A stretch of 64,000 bases of DNA from Cyclobacteriaceae bacterium (GTDB lineage Bacteria; Bacteroidota; Bacteroidia; Cytophagales; Cyclobacteriaceae): positions 62,001 through 126,000 of the forward strand of contig JAHBTX010000003.1 of assembly GCA_019638395.1 (NCBI GenBank), given 5' to 3'. How positions within the stretch are numbered: the first letter of the stretch is position 1; every line of letters begins with the position of its first letter. Positions 9,340 to 62,648 of this stretch are shown in pieces. The translations under genes and the position numbers were made by a program. Under the pieces are notes generated by a model. The model had not been told where the DNA came from, searched no databases, and saw only the letters and a program-made list of their open reading frames with translations.

Positions 9340-9777
9340 CTATTCGTTGTTGGCTTCTTGTTTAGCTTTTTCAATACTTTCGAGCATTAAGTTTTTTACA
9401 TTTTTAACACGTTCCATTTCTCCTTCCAGGTAGGCGCGCGCTTTTTCCTGATCGACCGTATCGGGTAGTGGATTAAACCTATGCATCCAGTCCATCATGG
9501 CATTACTGGCGGAGTCCAGGTTGCTGATGATTTTTTCTAATTGTTGTTTGCGCTCCACCACCATATCGGGGGTGTTGGCAATTTGTTCCTGCAACTCGCG
9601 CTTCAGTTTCATGATCTCATCCATCTTAGGCATTACCTCATCGTGCACGTCCATCACCTGATCGTACAATACCTGGTTGGGGTTATCGCTGGTATCGGTT
9701 TCGGATGTTGCGGGTTTATTCTTTTCGCAGCTGGTTAAAAGTAAGGTCATAACCAGAACGGGCAAAAGGATTTTCAT
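9340..9777 (-). CDS. Small lipoprotein with helical, coiled-coil-like body
   Basis: A 145-residue protein. The start at 9777 gives MKILLPVLVMTLLLTSCEK, a clean lipoprotein signal with lipobox LLTSC; a longer reading frame upstream has no signal sequence. The mature part has a short Ser/Thr/Asp linker and then two or three long charged helices (DVHDEVMPKMDEIMKLKREL and so on). Similar Bacteroidota lipoproteins are sometimes labelled viral A-type inclusion protein, a label that says nothing about function. It precedes a SET gene in the same direction. Confidence 0.75.
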   Translation of the reverse strand: MKILLPVLVMTLLLTSCEKNKPATSETDTSDNPNQVLYDQVMDVHDEVMPKMDEIMKLKRELQEQIANTPDMVVERKQQLEKIISNLDSASNAMMDWMHRFNPLPDTVDQEKARAYLEGEMERVKNVKNLMLESIEKAKQEANNE

Positions 9778-9797
9778 ACGTTTAATTTTTTGGTTTG

Positions 9798-9917: not shown

Positions 9918-9938
9918 TTAGAACCAGAATTGAGACAA

Positions 9939-10016
9939 ATGATCACCAACCGATTTTACTTCTTTTACTTTTTTTATCAATCCCGGATGGGACTTGAAAG
10001 AGAATCGGTTTGTTAA
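9939..10016 (+). CDS. Phe/Tyr-rich leader peptide of the pheA operon
   Basis: A 25-codon frame, ATG at 9939 to TAA at 10014-10016. It opens M-I-T-N-R and then has eight consecutive aromatic codons, F-Y-F-F-Y-F-F-Y (9954-9977), five for Phe and three for Tyr, before a charged end. It lies about 65 bases before prephenate dehydratase, the entry to the Phe branch, and just before a terminator hairpin. This is the architecture of an attenuation leader: ribosome stalling on Phe/Tyr codons would report scarcity of both end products. The peptide itself need have no other function. Confidence comes from the codon run, the location and the RNA pairings together. Confidence 0.88.
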   Translation: MITNRFYFFYFFYQSRMGLERESVC

Positions 10017-10053
10017 GAAATAATAAAACGAAAGAAACTCAGAAAGTCCCTCC
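9948..10053 (+). promoter_or_regulatory. Attenuator: leader stem and antiterminator
   Basis: Two alternative pairings are visible. AACCGATT (9948-9955), at the start of the aromatic codon run, is perfectly complementary to AATCGGTT (10003-10010), with further CTTTT/GAAAG pairing inside (9962-9966 with 9996-10000). GGATGGGACTT (9985-9995) can pair with AAGTCCCTCC (10044-10053), 10 bp with one bulged T, and this removes the left arm of the terminator. A ribosome stalled on the Phe/Tyr codons would block the first stem and free the second segment for antitermination. A small TCCC/GGGA hairpin (9981-9992) could also hold that segment. Confidence 0.8.
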
Positions 10054-10073
10054 GAAAGAGGGACTTTCTTTTT
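10041..10073 (+). terminator. Attenuator terminator before pheA
   Basis: A perfect 12-bp stem, AGAAAGTCCCTC (10041-10052) with GAGGGACTTTCT (10058-10069), has loop CGAAA and a run of five T at 10069-10073. It lies directly before the pheA start codon, so it can only regulate that operon and cannot serve an upstream plus-strand gene; the neighbouring upstream gene is on the other strand. Confidence 0.9.
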
Positions 10074-10080
10074 GATGTAT

Positions 10081-10923
10081 ATGAGCAAAAGGAAAAAACT
10101 GAAGATCGCCATTCAAGGCATAGCCACCAGCTTCCACGAGGTGGCGGCACTAACGTACTTTCATGAACCCATACAAACCGTGGAGTGTTTGAGTTTTTAT
10201 GCACTGTGCGAATCGTTGAAGAAAGGTGAATCTGACTATGCGGTAATGGCGATTGAAAACTCTATCGCGGGGAGTATTTTGCCCAACTACTTTTTACTAC
10301 AAGAATATCACTTCTCCATTATTGGTGAGGTATATCTACCCATACACATGCACCTGCTTGCATTGCCCGGTGTTAAACTAAATGACCTCACCAGTATCGA
10401 GTCGCACCCGATGGCCATTCGCCAATGTACCGATTTTCTTTACCGGTTAAATGGTGTGCAGATTTCAGAAAGTGAGGACACGGCACTATCGGCACGCAAA
10501 GTAAAAGAGCAAAAGTTAAAAACTACTGCGGCCATTGCTAACGAGTATGCTGCCAAAAAATTCGGGTTAAATATTTTAGAGAAACGCATCGAAACGCATA
10601 AGAAAAATTTTACCCGCTTTTTGATTCTTACCCGCAAAATTAAAACATCATCCGACAGCAATAAGGCTTCGCTGTATTTTGAAGTGGCCAACGAAGTTGG
10701 CAGCCTGGCGGAAGCGCTGATGACGTTTAAGAATAACAGTATTAACCTTTCCAAAATCCAATCAATACCCATTATTGGTAAGCCAAGCGAATACTCAATT
10801 CACATTGACGTAGAATGGAAGAAACGCAAGAGCTATGATGTGGCCATAGGGGAAGTATTGCGGCAGGTAAAAAACCTCAACATTTTGGGCGAATACAAAA
10901 AAGCAAAAATCGAATACAAGTAA
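10081..10923 (+). CDS. pheA: Prephenate dehydratase
   Basis: A 280-residue enzyme converting prephenate to phenylpyruvate. The PDT domain (about 6-185) shows a variant opening IAIQGIATSFHEVAAL, VMAIENSIAGSI (about 55-66), SIESHPMAIRQC (about 105-116) and the catalytic TRF motif at 178-180. A C-terminal ACT domain (about 197-270) begins LYFEVANEVGSLAEAL, but the usual ESRP phenylalanine-binding motif reads QSIP, so feedback binding may differ. ATG 10081 is preferred; ATG 10075 in the same frame is possible. It is monofunctional: chorismate mutase is fused to DAHP synthase three genes downstream. A leader-peptide attenuator lies directly upstream. Confidence 0.93.
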   Translation: MSKRKKLKIAIQGIATSFHEVAALTYFHEPIQTVECLSFYALCESLKKGESDYAVMAIENSIAGSILPNYFLLQEYHFSIIGEVYLPIHMHLLALPGVKLNDLTSIESHPMAIRQCTDFLYRLNGVQISESEDTALSARKVKEQKLKTTAAIANEYAAKKFGLNILEKRIETHKKNFTRFLILTRKIKTSSDSNKASLYFEVANEVGSLAEALMTFKNNSINLSKIQSIPIIGKPSEYSIHIDVEWKKRKSYDVAIGEVLRQVKNLNILGEYKKAKIEYK

Positions 10924-10924
10924 C

Positions 10925-12121
10925 ATGATAAAGACTGCAAACCGGATTGCCAACGTAGAAGAATATTACTTCAGCAAAAAGTTAGCGGAAGTGCGTGGGT
11001 TGGATACACCGGCACATCCGGTAATTAACCTGGGTATTGGTAGCCCCGATCTGGCTCCGGCTGCTTCGGCTATTGAAGCTCTGAACGTAACGGCCCAGAA
11101 AGTCAACAGCCACGGATACCAGAATTACAAAGGCATTCCTGCCTTGCGACAAGGTGTGCAAGCATTTTATAAAAGTACTTACGGTGTTAATCTGAATGCT
11201 GAAACAGAAATCCTTCCGCTCATGGGTTCGAAGGAAGGTATCATGCACATTGCTATGGCTTTTGTAAATGAAGGTGAAGAAGTTTTAATTCCTGATCCTG
11301 GCTATCCAACGTATTCATCAGTAGCTAAACTGGTGGGGGCAAAAGTAAGAACCTATAAACTACAGGAATCCTTAGATTGGGGAATTGATGTAGCAGCCTT
11401 GCAAAGATCCGATTTATCGAAAGTAAAAGTTATGTGGGTTAATTTTCCACACATGCCAACGGGGCGCGTTGCATCCAAAGAAGAATTGAAAGCGTTGGTT
11501 GATCTTGCACGCAAGAATAATTTTTTGATTGTGAATGATAATCCGTATTCATTAATCTTAAATGACAATCCGCAGAGCATTCTTGCCATAGAAGGAGCTG
11601 CCGATGTAGCGTTAGAGCTTAACTCGTTGAGTAAATCGCACAACATGGCTGGCTGGCGAATTGGTTGGGTAGCGGGTAACAAAGATTTGGTTGATGCCGT
11701 GCTGCGTGTGAAGAGCAATATGGATAGCGGCATGTTTCTGGGTTTGCAACAGGCTGCTGCTGAAGCTTTGAAGAATGGAAAGGAATGGTTTACCGAATTA
11801 AACGCAGTCTATAAAAAAAGAAGAACGGCTGCGCGGAAGATTTTAGATGTTTTAGGTTGTTCCTATTCTGAAAAGCAGTCGGGGTTGTTTGTGTGGGCCA
11901 AAGCACCCGATCATGTTGTTGATATAGAAAAATGGATTGATGAAGTGTTGTATGCCACACATGTATTTATAACACCTGGTTTTATTTTTGGTGAAGGCGG
12001 TTCGCGTTTTATCCGCATCTCGCTTTGCGCTACCGAAGAAAAACTGCAAGAAGCGCTAGTCCGGATTCAAAAGTTTGTGGCTGAAAATACTACCGTCTCA
12101 AATCTAACCTCTCAAGTTTAA
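10925..12121 (+). CDS. Pyridoxal-phosphate aminotransferase, probably aromatic
   Basis: A 398-residue fold-type I (class I/II) aminotransferase. Visible features are INLGIGSPDLAP, the YQNYKGIPALR substrate loop, DPGYPTYSS, the cofactor region VNFPHMPTGR and NDNPYS, and the PLP lysine Lys237 in LNSLSKSHNMAGWRIG, with arginine in FIRISL near the C-terminus. Family sequence alone does not fix the substrate, since the group includes aspartate, LL-diaminopimelate and aromatic enzymes. The position between prephenate dehydratase and prephenate dehydrogenase argues for transamination of phenylpyruvate and hydroxyphenylpyruvate. One base separates it from pheA. Confidence 0.9.
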   Translation: MIKTANRIANVEEYYFSKKLAEVRGLDTPAHPVINLGIGSPDLAPAASAIEALNVTAQKVNSHGYQNYKGIPALRQGVQAFYKSTYGVNLNAETEILPLMGSKEGIMHIAMAFVNEGEEVLIPDPGYPTYSSVAKLVGAKVRTYKLQESLDWGIDVAALQRSDLSKVKVMWVNFPHMPTGRVASKEELKALVDLARKNNFLIVNDNPYSLILNDNPQSILAIEGAADVALELNSLSKSHNMAGWRIGWVAGNKDLVDAVLRVKSNMDSGMFLGLQQAAAEALKNGKEWFTELNAVYKKRRTAARKILDVLGCSYSEKQSGLFVWAKAPDHVVDIEKWIDEVLYATHVFITPGFIFGEGGSRFIRISLCATEEKLQEALVRIQKFVAENTTVSNLTSQV

Positions 12122-12124
12122 ATA

Positions 12125-12988
12125 ATGAAAACAACTATTGTTGGATTAGGATTGATTGGAGGCTCGGTTGCGCTGGGTTTGCGCAGGGCGGGCATTGCTA
12201 CTGAGTTGATGGGTGTAGATGCGAATGCTGCCAATGGATTGAAAGCTGTTGAGCTTGGCTTGGTAGATAAAATCTTAACAGAAGATAAAGCACTTTCAAC
12301 AGCCGATTTGATTGTGTTGGCTATTCCGGTAAATGCGCTGAATGCATTTTTGCCAGCGGTATTGGATATTGTAAAGAAGGGGGCTGTGGTTATTGATGGT
12401 GGATCAACCAAAACATCCATTTGCAAGTCGGTGGCCAACCATCCCAAGCGAAATCAGTTTGTAGCAGCTCATCCTATTGCCGGAACTGAAAACTCAGGAC
12501 CAACAGCAGCTTTTGATGGTTTGTTTAAAGGCAAAACCAACATTATTTGCGAAGCAGGGAAATCTTCGGTAGAAGCGTTGAACACAGCTATGAAAGTTTT
12601 TGATGCATTGGAAATGAAAACCATTTTTATGGAAGCCGATGAACACGACCGGCATGTAGCGTATGTCTCACATCTCTCGCACGTGAGTTCCTTTTTATTA
12701 GGTCAAACTGTGCTGGATATAGAGAAAGACGAAAAGAATATTTTTGATCTGGCAGGTAGTGGTTTTGCCTCTACGGTACGGTTAGCCAAAAGTTCGCCCG
12801 ATATGTGGGCACCCATCTTTGAACAAAATGTAGAGTACCTGAGCCAGGCACTACTGGAATATATTATGCACCTGCAAAAATTTCATTACCACTTAATGAA
12901 GCGCGACACCAAAGAGTTGCACCGCATTATGAGCAAGGCGAATGAGATTCGCAGGGTGCTGGATCAAAGCGATAAACCCAAAACGTAA
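12125..12988 (+). CDS. tyrA: Prephenate dehydrogenase
   Basis: A 287-residue enzyme of the tyrosine branch that oxidatively decarboxylates prephenate to 4-hydroxyphenylpyruvate. The N-terminal Rossmann motif is VGLGLIGGSVALG (about 6-18), followed by an acidic VDAN at the end of beta-2 that suggests NAD preference. The family signature AAHPIAGTENSGP carries the catalytic histidine (His116), and the all-helical C-terminal dimerisation domain includes HVAYVSHLSHVSS and DLAGSGFASTVRLA. There is no fused chorismate mutase or ACT domain. It lies three bases after the aminotransferase gene. Confidence 0.93.
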   Translation: MKTTIVGLGLIGGSVALGLRRAGIATELMGVDANAANGLKAVELGLVDKILTEDKALSTADLIVLAIPVNALNAFLPAVLDIVKKGAVVIDGGSTKTSICKSVANHPKRNQFVAAHPIAGTENSGPTAAFDGLFKGKTNIICEAGKSSVEALNTAMKVFDALEMKTIFMEADEHDRHVAYVSHLSHVSSFLLGQTVLDIEKDEKNIFDLAGSGFASTVRLAKSSPDMWAPIFEQNVEYLSQALLEYIMHLQKFHYHLMKRDTKELHRIMSKANEIRRVLDQSDKPKT

Positions 12989-13047: not shown

Positions 13048-14151
13048 ATGACAAAGAAAGGATTACAACTCGAACCCATATCATCGTGGATGAAGACCAG
13101 CAGACCCGTTATCATTAGCGGGCCATGCAGTGCAGAGACAGAAGAGCAAACCATCGCCACAGCTAAACAAGTTGCCGCAACAGGCAAAGTGCATGCCCTA
13201 CGTGCCGGTATCTGGAAGCCGCGCACAAGGCCTGGCCAATACGAAGGTGCTGGTGATGTAGGTTTAAAATGGTTGGTGCAAGCGGGTAAAGAGACGGGTT
13301 TACCTGTAACAACGGAAGTAGCCAATGCCGCCCACGTAGAGGCAGCCTTAAAAGCTGGTGTAAATTTTTTATGGGTAGGTGCACGCACCACGGTAAATCC
13401 ATTCTCGGTTCAGGAAGTTGCCGATGCTTTAAAAGGTGTTGACATTCCGGTGTTGGTAAAAAATCCGATCAATCCGGATGTAGAGTTGTGGTTAGGTGCG
13501 CTGGAGCGTTTGAACAAAGCAGGCATCACCAAGTTGGCTGCCATTCATCGCGGGTTCTCCTCATTCGAGAAAGGTCCTTTCCGCAACGCACCGATGTGGG
13601 ATCTTGCCATTGAATTAAAGACCCGGGTACCGGAGTTAGATATGATTTGCGATCCAAGTCACATTGCCGGTAACCGCGATCTTATTGCATTCATTTCGCA
13701 GAAGGCGCTTGATCTGGATATGGCTGGTTTGATGATTGAAAGTCATATTAACCCTGATGCTGCGTGGAGCGATGCCAAGCAACAGGTTACTCCGGCTGTG
13801 CTGGGTAAGATCATTAGCGAACTGGTTGTGCGCACGGCTTCTGTTGAGAACAAAACATTCAAAGACACACTCAGTATTCTGCGTGAGCAGATTGATCAGT
13901 TAGATGATGAGATCATGCAACGGTTATCGCAACGCATGAAGATATCAGAGAAGATAGGCCAGTACAAGAAAGAAAATAACGTAACCATCCTGCAGGTAAA
14001 CCGCTGGGAAGAAATTGTACAAACCCGTATTGCTTTATGTAAGGCAATGGGATTGAACGAAGAGTTTACAAACGATTTACTGAAGTTGATTCACCATGAG
14101 TCGATTCAGGTGCAAACCAAGGTGATGAATCAGGTTGCAGAGCGAGTGTGA
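13048..14151 (+). CDS. Bifunctional DAHP synthase / chorismate mutase
   Basis: A 367-residue fusion. Residues 1 to about 258 form a type I, KDO8P-synthase-like DAHP synthase: ISGPCSAETEEQ, LRAGIWKPRTRPG, EVANAAHVEAAL, VLVKNPINPD, IHRGFSSFEK, CDPSHIAG and GLMIESHINP. Residues about 270-360 form an AroQ-type helical chorismate mutase (LREQIDQLDDEIMQRLSQRMKI, then QYKKENNVTILQ and RWEEI). The pair supplies both the first shikimate-pathway step and prephenate. In related fusions the mutase domain mediates prephenate inhibition of the synthase. A 59-base gap follows tyrA with no clear terminator, so it is probably the last gene of the attenuated operon. Confidence 0.93.
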   Translation: MTKKGLQLEPISSWMKTSRPVIISGPCSAETEEQTIATAKQVAATGKVHALRAGIWKPRTRPGQYEGAGDVGLKWLVQAGKETGLPVTTEVANAAHVEAALKAGVNFLWVGARTTVNPFSVQEVADALKGVDIPVLVKNPINPDVELWLGALERLNKAGITKLAAIHRGFSSFEKGPFRNAPMWDLAIELKTRVPELDMICDPSHIAGNRDLIAFISQKALDLDMAGLMIESHINPDAAWSDAKQQVTPAVLGKIISELVVRTASVENKTFKDTLSILREQIDQLDDEIMQRLSQRMKISEKIGQYKKENNVTILQVNRWEEIVQTRIALCKAMGLNEEFTNDLLKLIHHESIQVQTKVMNQVAERV

Positions 14152-61538: not shown

Positions 61539-62648
61539 TTAGGCGGGCTGCAATTGTTCTATCTCCTGTAAGTATTTGGTAATCACAATTTTTTCATCGA
61601 ATTCAATCTCGATTTTCTTGCGACCGTTTTCGCCAAATTTTTTAAGGGTGGTATTATCGAGCGTAAGCATGGTTTCCATCTTCAGCGCCAGGTCGTCAGC
61701 ACTTTTTATTTTGCAAAGCAGCCCGTTGTAATTGTCTTGTACAACATGGTGGCAACCGGGCACATCAGTAGTTACAATGGGTTTAGCTGAACTGGCGGCT
61801 TCCAATAGTGTGCGTGGCGTTCCTTCGCGGTAGGAGGGTAGAACCACGCAATCGGCCTGGTTTATAAAGTTGCGAACATCATCAGAGGTGCCCAGGTATT
61901 CAATGGTTCCGGATTTTATCCAGTGGTCAATTACAGAAAGTTTAATGCCGCGTGCATGTTCCGGATCTTTGGCTCCCAAAATCTGAAAGCGGGCTGCAAC
62001 ACCTTTTTGTTTTAGTTTCTTAACGGCCTCCACAAATTCCATCACGCCTTTATCCGTTATCAGGCGCGAGATTAACAGAAAAGTAAAAGTTTCGTTTCGT
62101 TTAAATGCAGCAGGTGTAAAATGACTCAGATCAATACCAGACCCCGGAATTAAATCGGCCGACTTAGCCGGAATCAGGTTCTTGTTAAGAAATAAGGCCA
62201 GATCATCGGGGTTTTGAAAAAATACTTTTCGCGGAAAGCGAAAGGCCAACTTGTACAGCATCATGGCAAATGCCGAAACAAGGTTACTCTTGAGGAAAAC
62301 GGTACCCAATCCACACACATTATTAACGGTAGGAATGCGCAGCAGAGTTGCAGCCAGTGTGCCGTAAACATTAGGTTTGATAGTATAGTGAAGGATAATA
62401 TCCGGGCGTATTTTCCGGTAAATCGCCCACAGTTCAAACATCAGCCCCAGGTCTTTAATTGGATTGGCACCACGGCTATCCATTTTTACATCGTGATGAA
62501 TACAGCCTAATTCCTGCAGATAGTGGGTATAATTATCATGCGGGGCAATGGTATGTACACTATAACCTTTAGCAAGTAGGGCGCGAACAAAATTCAACCG
62601 GAAATTGTAGATGTTCCAGGATGTGTTTAATACTATTGCAACTTTCAT
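61539..62648 (-). CDS. Glycosyltransferase family 4
   Basis: A 369-residue GT-B enzyme. MKVAIVLNTSWNIYNFRLNFVRALL (start at 62648) is the acceptor domain; FLLISRLITDKGVMEFVEAV and the donor-binding PSYREGTPRTLLEAASSAKPIVTTDVPGC (about 270-298, E-x7-E motif) define GT4. The exact sugar is unknown; related enzymes act in O-antigen or capsule repeat unit synthesis. It is divergent from hflX, with a 162-base AT-rich gap, and is the first gene of the polysaccharide run. Confidence 0.92.
   Translation of the reverse strand: MKVAIVLNTSWNIYNFRLNFVRALLAKGYSVHTIAPHDNYTHYLQELGCIHHDVKMDSRGANPIKDLGLMFELWAIYRKIRPDIILHYTIKPNVYGTLAATLLRIPTVNNVCGLGTVFLKSNLVSAFAMMLYKLAFRFPRKVFFQNPDDLALFLNKNLIPAKSADLIPGSGIDLSHFTPAAFKRNETFTFLLISRLITDKGVMEFVEAVKKLKQKGVAARFQILGAKDPEHARGIKLSVIDHWIKSGTIEYLGTSDDVRNFINQADCVVLPSYREGTPRTLLEAASSAKPIVTTDVPGCHHVVQDNYNGLLCKIKSADDLALKMETMLTLDNTTLKKFGENGRKKIEIEFDEKIVITKYLQEIEQLQPA

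Follow-up and report, generated by a model that had tools for sequence, protein, structure and literature searches.

A putative Phe/Tyr leader-peptide attenuator ahead of the aromatic operon of a Cyclobacteriaceae bacterium and its conservation among relatives in the Bacteroidota

What would a 25-codon reading frame containing eight consecutive Phe and Tyr codons be doing immediately ahead of a hairpin terminator and of the genes that make phenylalanine and tyrosine? The question is raised by a locus in the window, by which we mean the whole stretch of 64,000 nucleotides analyzed here (positions 62,001 to 126,000 of contig JAHBTX010000003.1, from a Cyclobacteriaceae bacterium). We suggest that transcription of the operon for pheA, an aminotransferase, tyrA and a DAHP synthase/chorismate mutase is, very probably, controlled here by a ribosome-mediated attenuator of the trp/his/phe kind, and that a stalled ribosome most likely keeps the aromatic genes on.

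The leader and the aromatic operon

The features of the locus are collected in Table 1. An initial annotation, made from the letters of the window, had described the frame and its eight aromatic codons, two rival RNA pairings and a 12-bp terminator; direct reading and string search recover the frame and its run exactly, and, together with folding, place the pairings and the terminator where they had been proposed. We note that two further elements had been overlooked, namely S1, a local hairpin that would tie up the antiterminator arm, and the GAG/CTC extension of the antiterminator. The predicted architecture hence comprises a protector hairpin that overlaps the codon run and could be broken by a stalled ribosome, an antiterminator that competes for the 5' arm of the terminator, and a predicted intrinsic terminator between the leader frame and the first structural gene. 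The stretch from 9985 to 10057 folds at -21.5 kcal/mol (z -4.37), and the longer stretch from 9920 to 10080 at -40.1 kcal/mol (z -3.01).

Table 1. Predicted leader elements and operon genes in the window (coordinates count from the first letter of the window)
Feature	Coordinates	Strand	Remarks
Leader peptide ORF	9939..10016	+	Encodes MITNRFYFFYFFYQSRMGLERESVC; 25 codons, ATG start, TAA stop
Regulatory codon run F-Y-F-F-Y-F-F-Y	9954..9977	+	Eight consecutive Phe/Tyr codons; exact string search
Protector helix S0, 5' arm	9948..9955	+	AACCGATT; pairs with 10003-10010
Protector helix S0, 3' arm	10003..10010	+	AATCGGTT; pairs with 9948-9955
Local hairpin S1, 5' arm	9978..9984	+	CAATCCC; pairs with 9989-9996, one bulge; in minimum-energy fold
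Local hairpin S1, 3' arm	9989..9996	+	GGGACTTG; overlaps antiterminator 5' arm; in minimum-energy fold
Antiterminator S2, 5' arm	9985..9995	+	GGATGGGACTT; pairs with 10044-10053, one bulged base
Antiterminator extension GAG	10000..10002	+	Pairs with CTC 10038-10040
Antiterminator S2, 3' side	10038..10053	+	CTC extension 10038-10040 and arm AAGTCCCTCC 10044-10053; overlaps terminator 5' arm
Intrinsic terminator S3	10041..10073	+	Arms 10041-10052/10058-10069, 12-bp stem, loop of 5, then T run
pheA, prephenate dehydratase	10081..10923	+	PF00800, E 9.8e-55; in-frame ATG at 10075 also possible
Class I/II aminotransferase	10925..12121	+	PF00155, E 6.1e-68
tyrA, prephenate dehydrogenase	12125..12988	+	PF02153 and PF20463
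DAHP synthase fused to chorismate mutase	13048..14151	+	PF00793 and PF01817

The codon run is the only run of at least six Phe/Tyr codons in the six frames of the window, and 40 dinucleotide shuffles of the window produced four runs of at least six codons and none of at least eight, so that the run is not a product of chance. The leader is thus a short predicted ORF with a run of codons for amino acids that its operon makes. The antiterminator arm sits inside this frame, and the stop codon lies 18 nt beyond the arm, which means that a ribosome standing on the stop codon would not cover it. No Shine-Dalgarno-like 4-mer precedes the leader ORF of the window or any of the 51 genus leaders checked.

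Downstream, the four genes lie on one strand with gaps of 1, 3 and 59 nt. The mixed run of Phe and Tyr codons had been taken to suit an operon that makes both amino acids, and the Pfam matches for both pheA and tyrA bear this out. An aminotransferase homolog stands beside pheA in 50 of 52 loci of the genus, the other two (L051 and L054) being short pieces. The gene upstream of the leader (9340-9783) is on the opposite strand, and the hairpin at 10041-10069 is therefore not its terminator. A loose pattern for a Bacteroidota-type promoter, built on a motif that we take to be characteristic of such promoters, fits the region before the leader in 20/52 genus loci and in 517/5200 base-composition shuffles; since the pattern is in some excess but misses most loci, we claim no promoter.

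Conservation and covariation within the genus

The search for PheA covered 96 genomes. Of these, 58, the window's own included, belong to the same genus; 52 of the 58 carried a match, and all 52 loci were read. In every one of them an ORF rich in Phe and Tyr precedes pheA and is followed by a predicted terminator. The initial annotation had staked its reading on the codon run and the paired arms being kept in close relatives, and on neither count do the 52 loci refute it. Locus L007 has a one-base frameshift inside the run, which is probably an assembly error because the pheA of that genome shows stops as well, and locus L042 deviates in the pairing region. The start of the leader lies between 124 and 317 nt before pheA across the genus, and in L041 and L045 more than 100 nt of unexplained sequence separates the terminator from pheA. 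It is also observed that in several loci (for instance L012, L018, L024, L038, L041, L044 and L045) the leader stop falls inside or just past the antiterminator arm, an arrangement different from that of the window, with the RNA arms conserved.

With L007, L010 and L042 left out beforehand, 49 loci yielded 33 distinct runs, whose 264 codons comprise 239 for Phe or Tyr, 8 for Trp and 17 others, and whose pN/pS is 0.185. Phe and Tyr interchange freely in these runs, the aromatic class being kept while the codons change, as would be expected if the demand for tRNA, and not the function of a peptide, were under selection.

Covariation was scored in an alignment of the 52 genus loci (A1; 51 distinct rows, MAFFT) against 500 column shuffles. 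The scores, in a comparison where related sequences can exceed column shuffles and where the structures had been read from the window's own sequence, are 0.159 for S0 (0.080 in shuffles), 0.170 for S2 with its extension (0.117) and 0.347 for S3 (0.169), none of which was reached in any of the 500 shuffles; the same holds for the numbers of cells paired and of cells changed on both sides. Weaker measures are less clear-cut: the number of pairs changed on both sides was reached by 19, 60 and 27 of the 500 shuffles for S0, S2 and S3, and the number of further pair types by 131, 7 and 148. The two pairings of the initial annotation thus prove conserved with compensatory changes by the covariation score, the other measures being weaker. 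For S1 there is no covariation excess (0.168 vs 0.157, with 75 of 500 shuffles as high), and the expectation that this hairpin would covary was dropped; it is conserved, with 86.3% of its cells paired.

Paired cells make up 84.6, 87.5 and 94.9% in S0, S2 and S3, and with the partner displaced by 1-3 columns no more than 47.8, 53.6, 57.2 and 68.4% of the cells pair in S0, S1, S2 and S3, in an alignment of which MAFFT misplaces a few rows. Both sides have changed in two of the three pairs of the GAG/CTC extension, and one pair of S0 is G-C in 23 sequences, C-G in 14 and unpaired in 13. Because the 5' arm of S0 also encodes part of the leader peptide, its conservation has two possible causes. RNAalifold, applied to A1, recovers S3 and part of S1 and neither S0 nor S2, which is to be expected of mutually exclusive pairings. 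Compared across the genus, the predicted ORF, its codon run and the putative helices S0, S2 and S3 have been kept, with compensatory changes, and A1 could serve as the basis for an Rfam-type model of the leader.

The proposed switch and its alternatives

We propose that, while the leader is being transcribed, S0 and the S1 hairpin that it encloses would sequester the GGGACTT arm. When charged Phe-tRNA and Tyr-tRNA are both at hand, the ribosome would clear the run and leave, the arm would stay or become sequestered or blocked, and S3 would then halt transcription ahead of pheA. When either aminoacyl-tRNA is scarce, the ribosome would stall on the run and keep the 5' arms of both S0 and S1 covered. 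GGGACTT, thus freed, would pair with AAGTCCC to form S2, which would capture the 5' side of the terminator stem while the 3' side has still to be transcribed, and so allow read-through. In the arrangement of the window, termination would presumably follow from a re-formed S1 or from a ribosome standing inside the S2 loop. We infer that the ORF is translated, that ribosomes stall on it, that capture is kinetic and that both tRNAs are sensed, and the same standing would apply to any role of S0 or S1 in pausing.

The folding of growing transcripts was followed in 51 genus sequences (L042 was left out), with the stalled ribosome represented as a mask on the run that excludes S0 by construction. 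Before the 3' arm of S2 is transcribed, S0 exceeds a probability of 0.5 in 41 of the 51 sequences and S1 is formed in 39. Once that arm is out, S2 is favored in 35/51 sequences with free RNA, in 43/51 with a stalled ribosome and in 30/51 with a ribosome at the stop codon; a separate count gives S2 a median probability of 0.93 in free and 0.97 in stalled transcripts. With the full terminator present, S3 wins in 47 free, 46 stalled and 47 stop-ribosome cases out of 51. Equilibrium folding was rejected as proof of switching, because S3 wins in every ribosome state; and since S2 is favored even without a ribosome, the model has to rely on kinetic folding. When a ribosome stands at the stop codon, the probability of S2 stays above 0.5 in 67% of the 52 sequences from the genus and in 25% of 76 others, and in most relatives outside the genus, unlike in the window, such a ribosome covers the antiterminator arm.

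Other roles for these elements can be imagined. The stem at 10041-10069 might act mainly on translation, blocking the binding of ribosomes at pheA until the leader ribosome relieves it, with termination a minor matter; its end at 10069 does lie 5-11 nt before the two possible pheA starts (ATG at 10075 and at 10081), but this spacing is not conserved, as the variable position of the leader start and the long gaps in L041 and L045 make plain, and T-rich tails after the stem recur in relatives, albeit in scans that required such tails. We regard this explanation as improbable. A metabolite- or protein-sensing element (a riboswitch, a T-box or a TRAP-like system) governing the terminator, with the Phe/Tyr frame incidental, seems more improbable still: a structured 5' region with a terminator ahead of a biosynthetic operon is what one would look for in such a case, but no Rfam family, RF01859, the T-box and the riboswitch families included, is matched at its gathering score in the window or in 20 loci, and the run is selected as a peptide and recurs beyond the genus amid different surrounding sequence.

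We would give the least credence of all, close to none, to the possibility that the frame encodes a functional aromatic-rich small protein to which the terminator is unrelated. The ORF is conserved and mostly starts with ATG, and many members of the genus share the C-terminus GLERESVC or GLDRESLC, as such a protein might; in other members, however, the stop shifts (for instance to the ends RGLK and SSGA) while the RNA arms persist, so that the shared C-terminus fits RNA pairing, and outside the genus both the length and the C-terminus of the peptide vary. Transcription attenuation by a leader ribosome is hence the explanation that we retain.

Distribution, doubled leaders and known systems

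Beyond the genus, a class-wide survey of 197 genomes found a PheA match to the window query in 58, from which 53 new loci were read (a fragment, from genome G117, was left out); with 10 of 27 order-level matches (the 17 weakest were left out) they make a set of 63 non-genus loci. A leader with at least 6 Phe/Tyr codons in 9 is present in 38 of the 63, vs 20 of 1260 dinucleotide shuffles and 2 of 63 reverse complements. The other 25 have no such leader directly before pheA, among them all seven loci of one family, f33 (L067, L071, L073, L074, L077, L079 and L081), and, in the window's own family, two of the four loci (L091 and L105) that belong to other genera; absences can be clade-wide. Among the best 80 of a larger number of loci from named records, at least 8 of which are on the same contigs as genus loci, 52 carry a leader-like ORF, followed in 51 by a terminator. 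The carriers include Pedobacter, Mucilaginibacter, Sphingobacterium and some records labelled Bacteroidales, and the 28 loci of these 80 without a leader before pheA include all four records labelled Prolixibacteraceae.

To recognize an antiterminator, the stretch after the run was scanned against the 5' arm of the terminator, and a match was passed if at most 10 of 200 shuffles equalled it. By this measure 52/52 genus loci, 27/39 class loci and 49/51 named rows with a terminator pass, and in the non-genus rows listed the match lies 3-15 nt after the last aromatic codon. We consider the set as a whole strong comparative evidence that many Bacteroidota would use the same attenuation logic for their phe/tyr operon. 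Two loci under other labels, L186 (candidate division KSB1) and L135 (Legionellaceae), show this leader anatomy ahead of a pheA of Bacteroidota type, possibly through transfer or misbinning.

In one family of the order all 29 loci carry the leader, and eight of them (L284, L285, L287, L288, L290, L293, L295 and L304) carry two leaders in series, both ORFs lying within about 310 nt before pheA. Two scans combined find two terminators in seven of the eight and one in L295. The antiterminator match passes in 4/8 second units and in 0/7 first units, the scan finding no terminator for the first unit of L295 and the first unit of L304 having been left out of the evaluation; L290 and L295 coincide with L057 and L059, whose second units were matched by 1 and 10 of 200 shuffles. 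In other families of the class, L106 and L108 also have two aromatic leader ORFs before pheA, and their sequences suggest a terminator after each.

Other amino-acid operons of the genus were read in 25 genomes. A leader with a His run precedes hisG in 24 of 25 loci and a Trp leader precedes trpE in 23 of 24 (in 22 with WWW; L225 was unreadable upstream), both counts coming from ORF scans without a shuffle control. An ungapped antiterminator scan passes 5 of the 12 His leaders and none of the 9 Trp leaders tested, out of 24 and 23 found, so that these putative leaders are suggested by codon run and terminator only. The window's own genome has, outside the window, a His-run leader (MKNTQNIHGHHHHVTNMGGNALF) with a terminator before hisG (L199, contig C21, near 803.2 kb) and a Trp leader with WWW, a TTG start and a terminator before trpE (L233, contig C1, near 641.0 kb). 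Before ilvD (24 loci, one per genome, from 24 of the 25 genomes), an Ile/Leu/Val-rich stretch appears in three loci (L252, L259 and L265), in none of them convincingly.

The initial annotation knew of no example of leader-peptide attenuation in the Bacteroidota, and in this it must be corrected. Work on Flavobacterium psychrophilum from 2021 reported strong clues to such attenuation before operons for amino-acid biosynthesis; it also described structured 5' elements that lie ahead of pheA and hisG, are present in other Flavobacteriaceae and have no Rfam matches (PMC9723704). These elements come from the same phylum as the window and stand before the same genes; for that of pheA the section reporting it gives neither a codon run nor a pairing model, and the present analysis goes beyond that section in testing covariation, and conservation in Cytophagales and Sphingobacteriales. 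Elsewhere in the phylum, short ORFs reminiscent of leader peptides have been noted in 5' UTRs of Bacteroides thetaiotaomicron (PMC7366714), and short leader genes 11-14 bp before structural genes have been ascribed to reinitiation (PMC4833913). The authors of a survey published in 2010 knew of demonstrated leader-peptide systems only from Proteobacteria and Actinobacteria, to which they added Firmicutes (PMC2965389); in a survey of his genes across the superphylum, the one mention of attenuation concerns S. enterica and E. coli (PMC8305728). The literature searched, whose coverage excludes most subscription papers, held no pheA leader of the Bacteroidota described by its codon run and pairing model and, in searches mostly aimed elsewhere, no tandem Phe/Tyr leaders. 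The leader in the window would hence represent a known mechanism already hinted at for the phylum, and what appears to be new is the comparative support, the wider range and the tandem variant in relatives.

Members of the Bacteroidota do not use Shine-Dalgarno initiation, and the coupling of transcription to translation is not universal, B. subtilis being an example (PMC10931766); on both counts, these leaders offer a natural reporter for ribosome-polymerase coupling in the phylum. A more far-reaching proposal, for which we see the case as evenly balanced, would be that leader-peptide control of aromatic, His and Trp operons is old and phylum-wide, and that in one Cytophagales family the Phe/Tyr gate has been doubled; with ribosomes that do not rely on Shine-Dalgarno pairing, RNA polymerase and the leader ribosome would then have to synchronize in a way not yet described. 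If this is true, two successive Phe/Tyr leader-terminator units would gate expression in two steps, and more sharply. These leaders would also account for a group of small ORFs and structured leaders beyond the reach of Rfam thresholds.

The pheA, trp and his attenuators of E. coli are leader-peptide transcription attenuators of the Proteobacteria. With these the locus in the window has in common a short ORF with many codons for the regulated amino acid before a biosynthetic operon, and a protector hairpin, an antiterminator and a terminator as mutually exclusive pairings. The Rfam model Phe_leader (RF01859) aligns over its full length at 9938-10073; the score of 38.8 bits (E 3.2e-05) is below its curated gathering score of 55, and many non-standard pairs are marked in the alignment. 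In contrast to the proteobacterial systems, the run in the window mixes Phe and Tyr codons (in relatives sometimes Trp), the operon also makes Tyr and holds the DAHP synthase, the leader has no Shine-Dalgarno-like sequence, and the antiterminator arm sits within the leader ORF, upstream of its stop. We would make a similar distinction for the tandem units. The mgtCBR leader of Salmonella has been described as holding tandem attenuators, with two short ORFs in one leader that are thought to control transcription (PMC3641672), whereas both units ahead of pheA carry aromatic runs and seven of the eight doubled loci have two predicted terminators.
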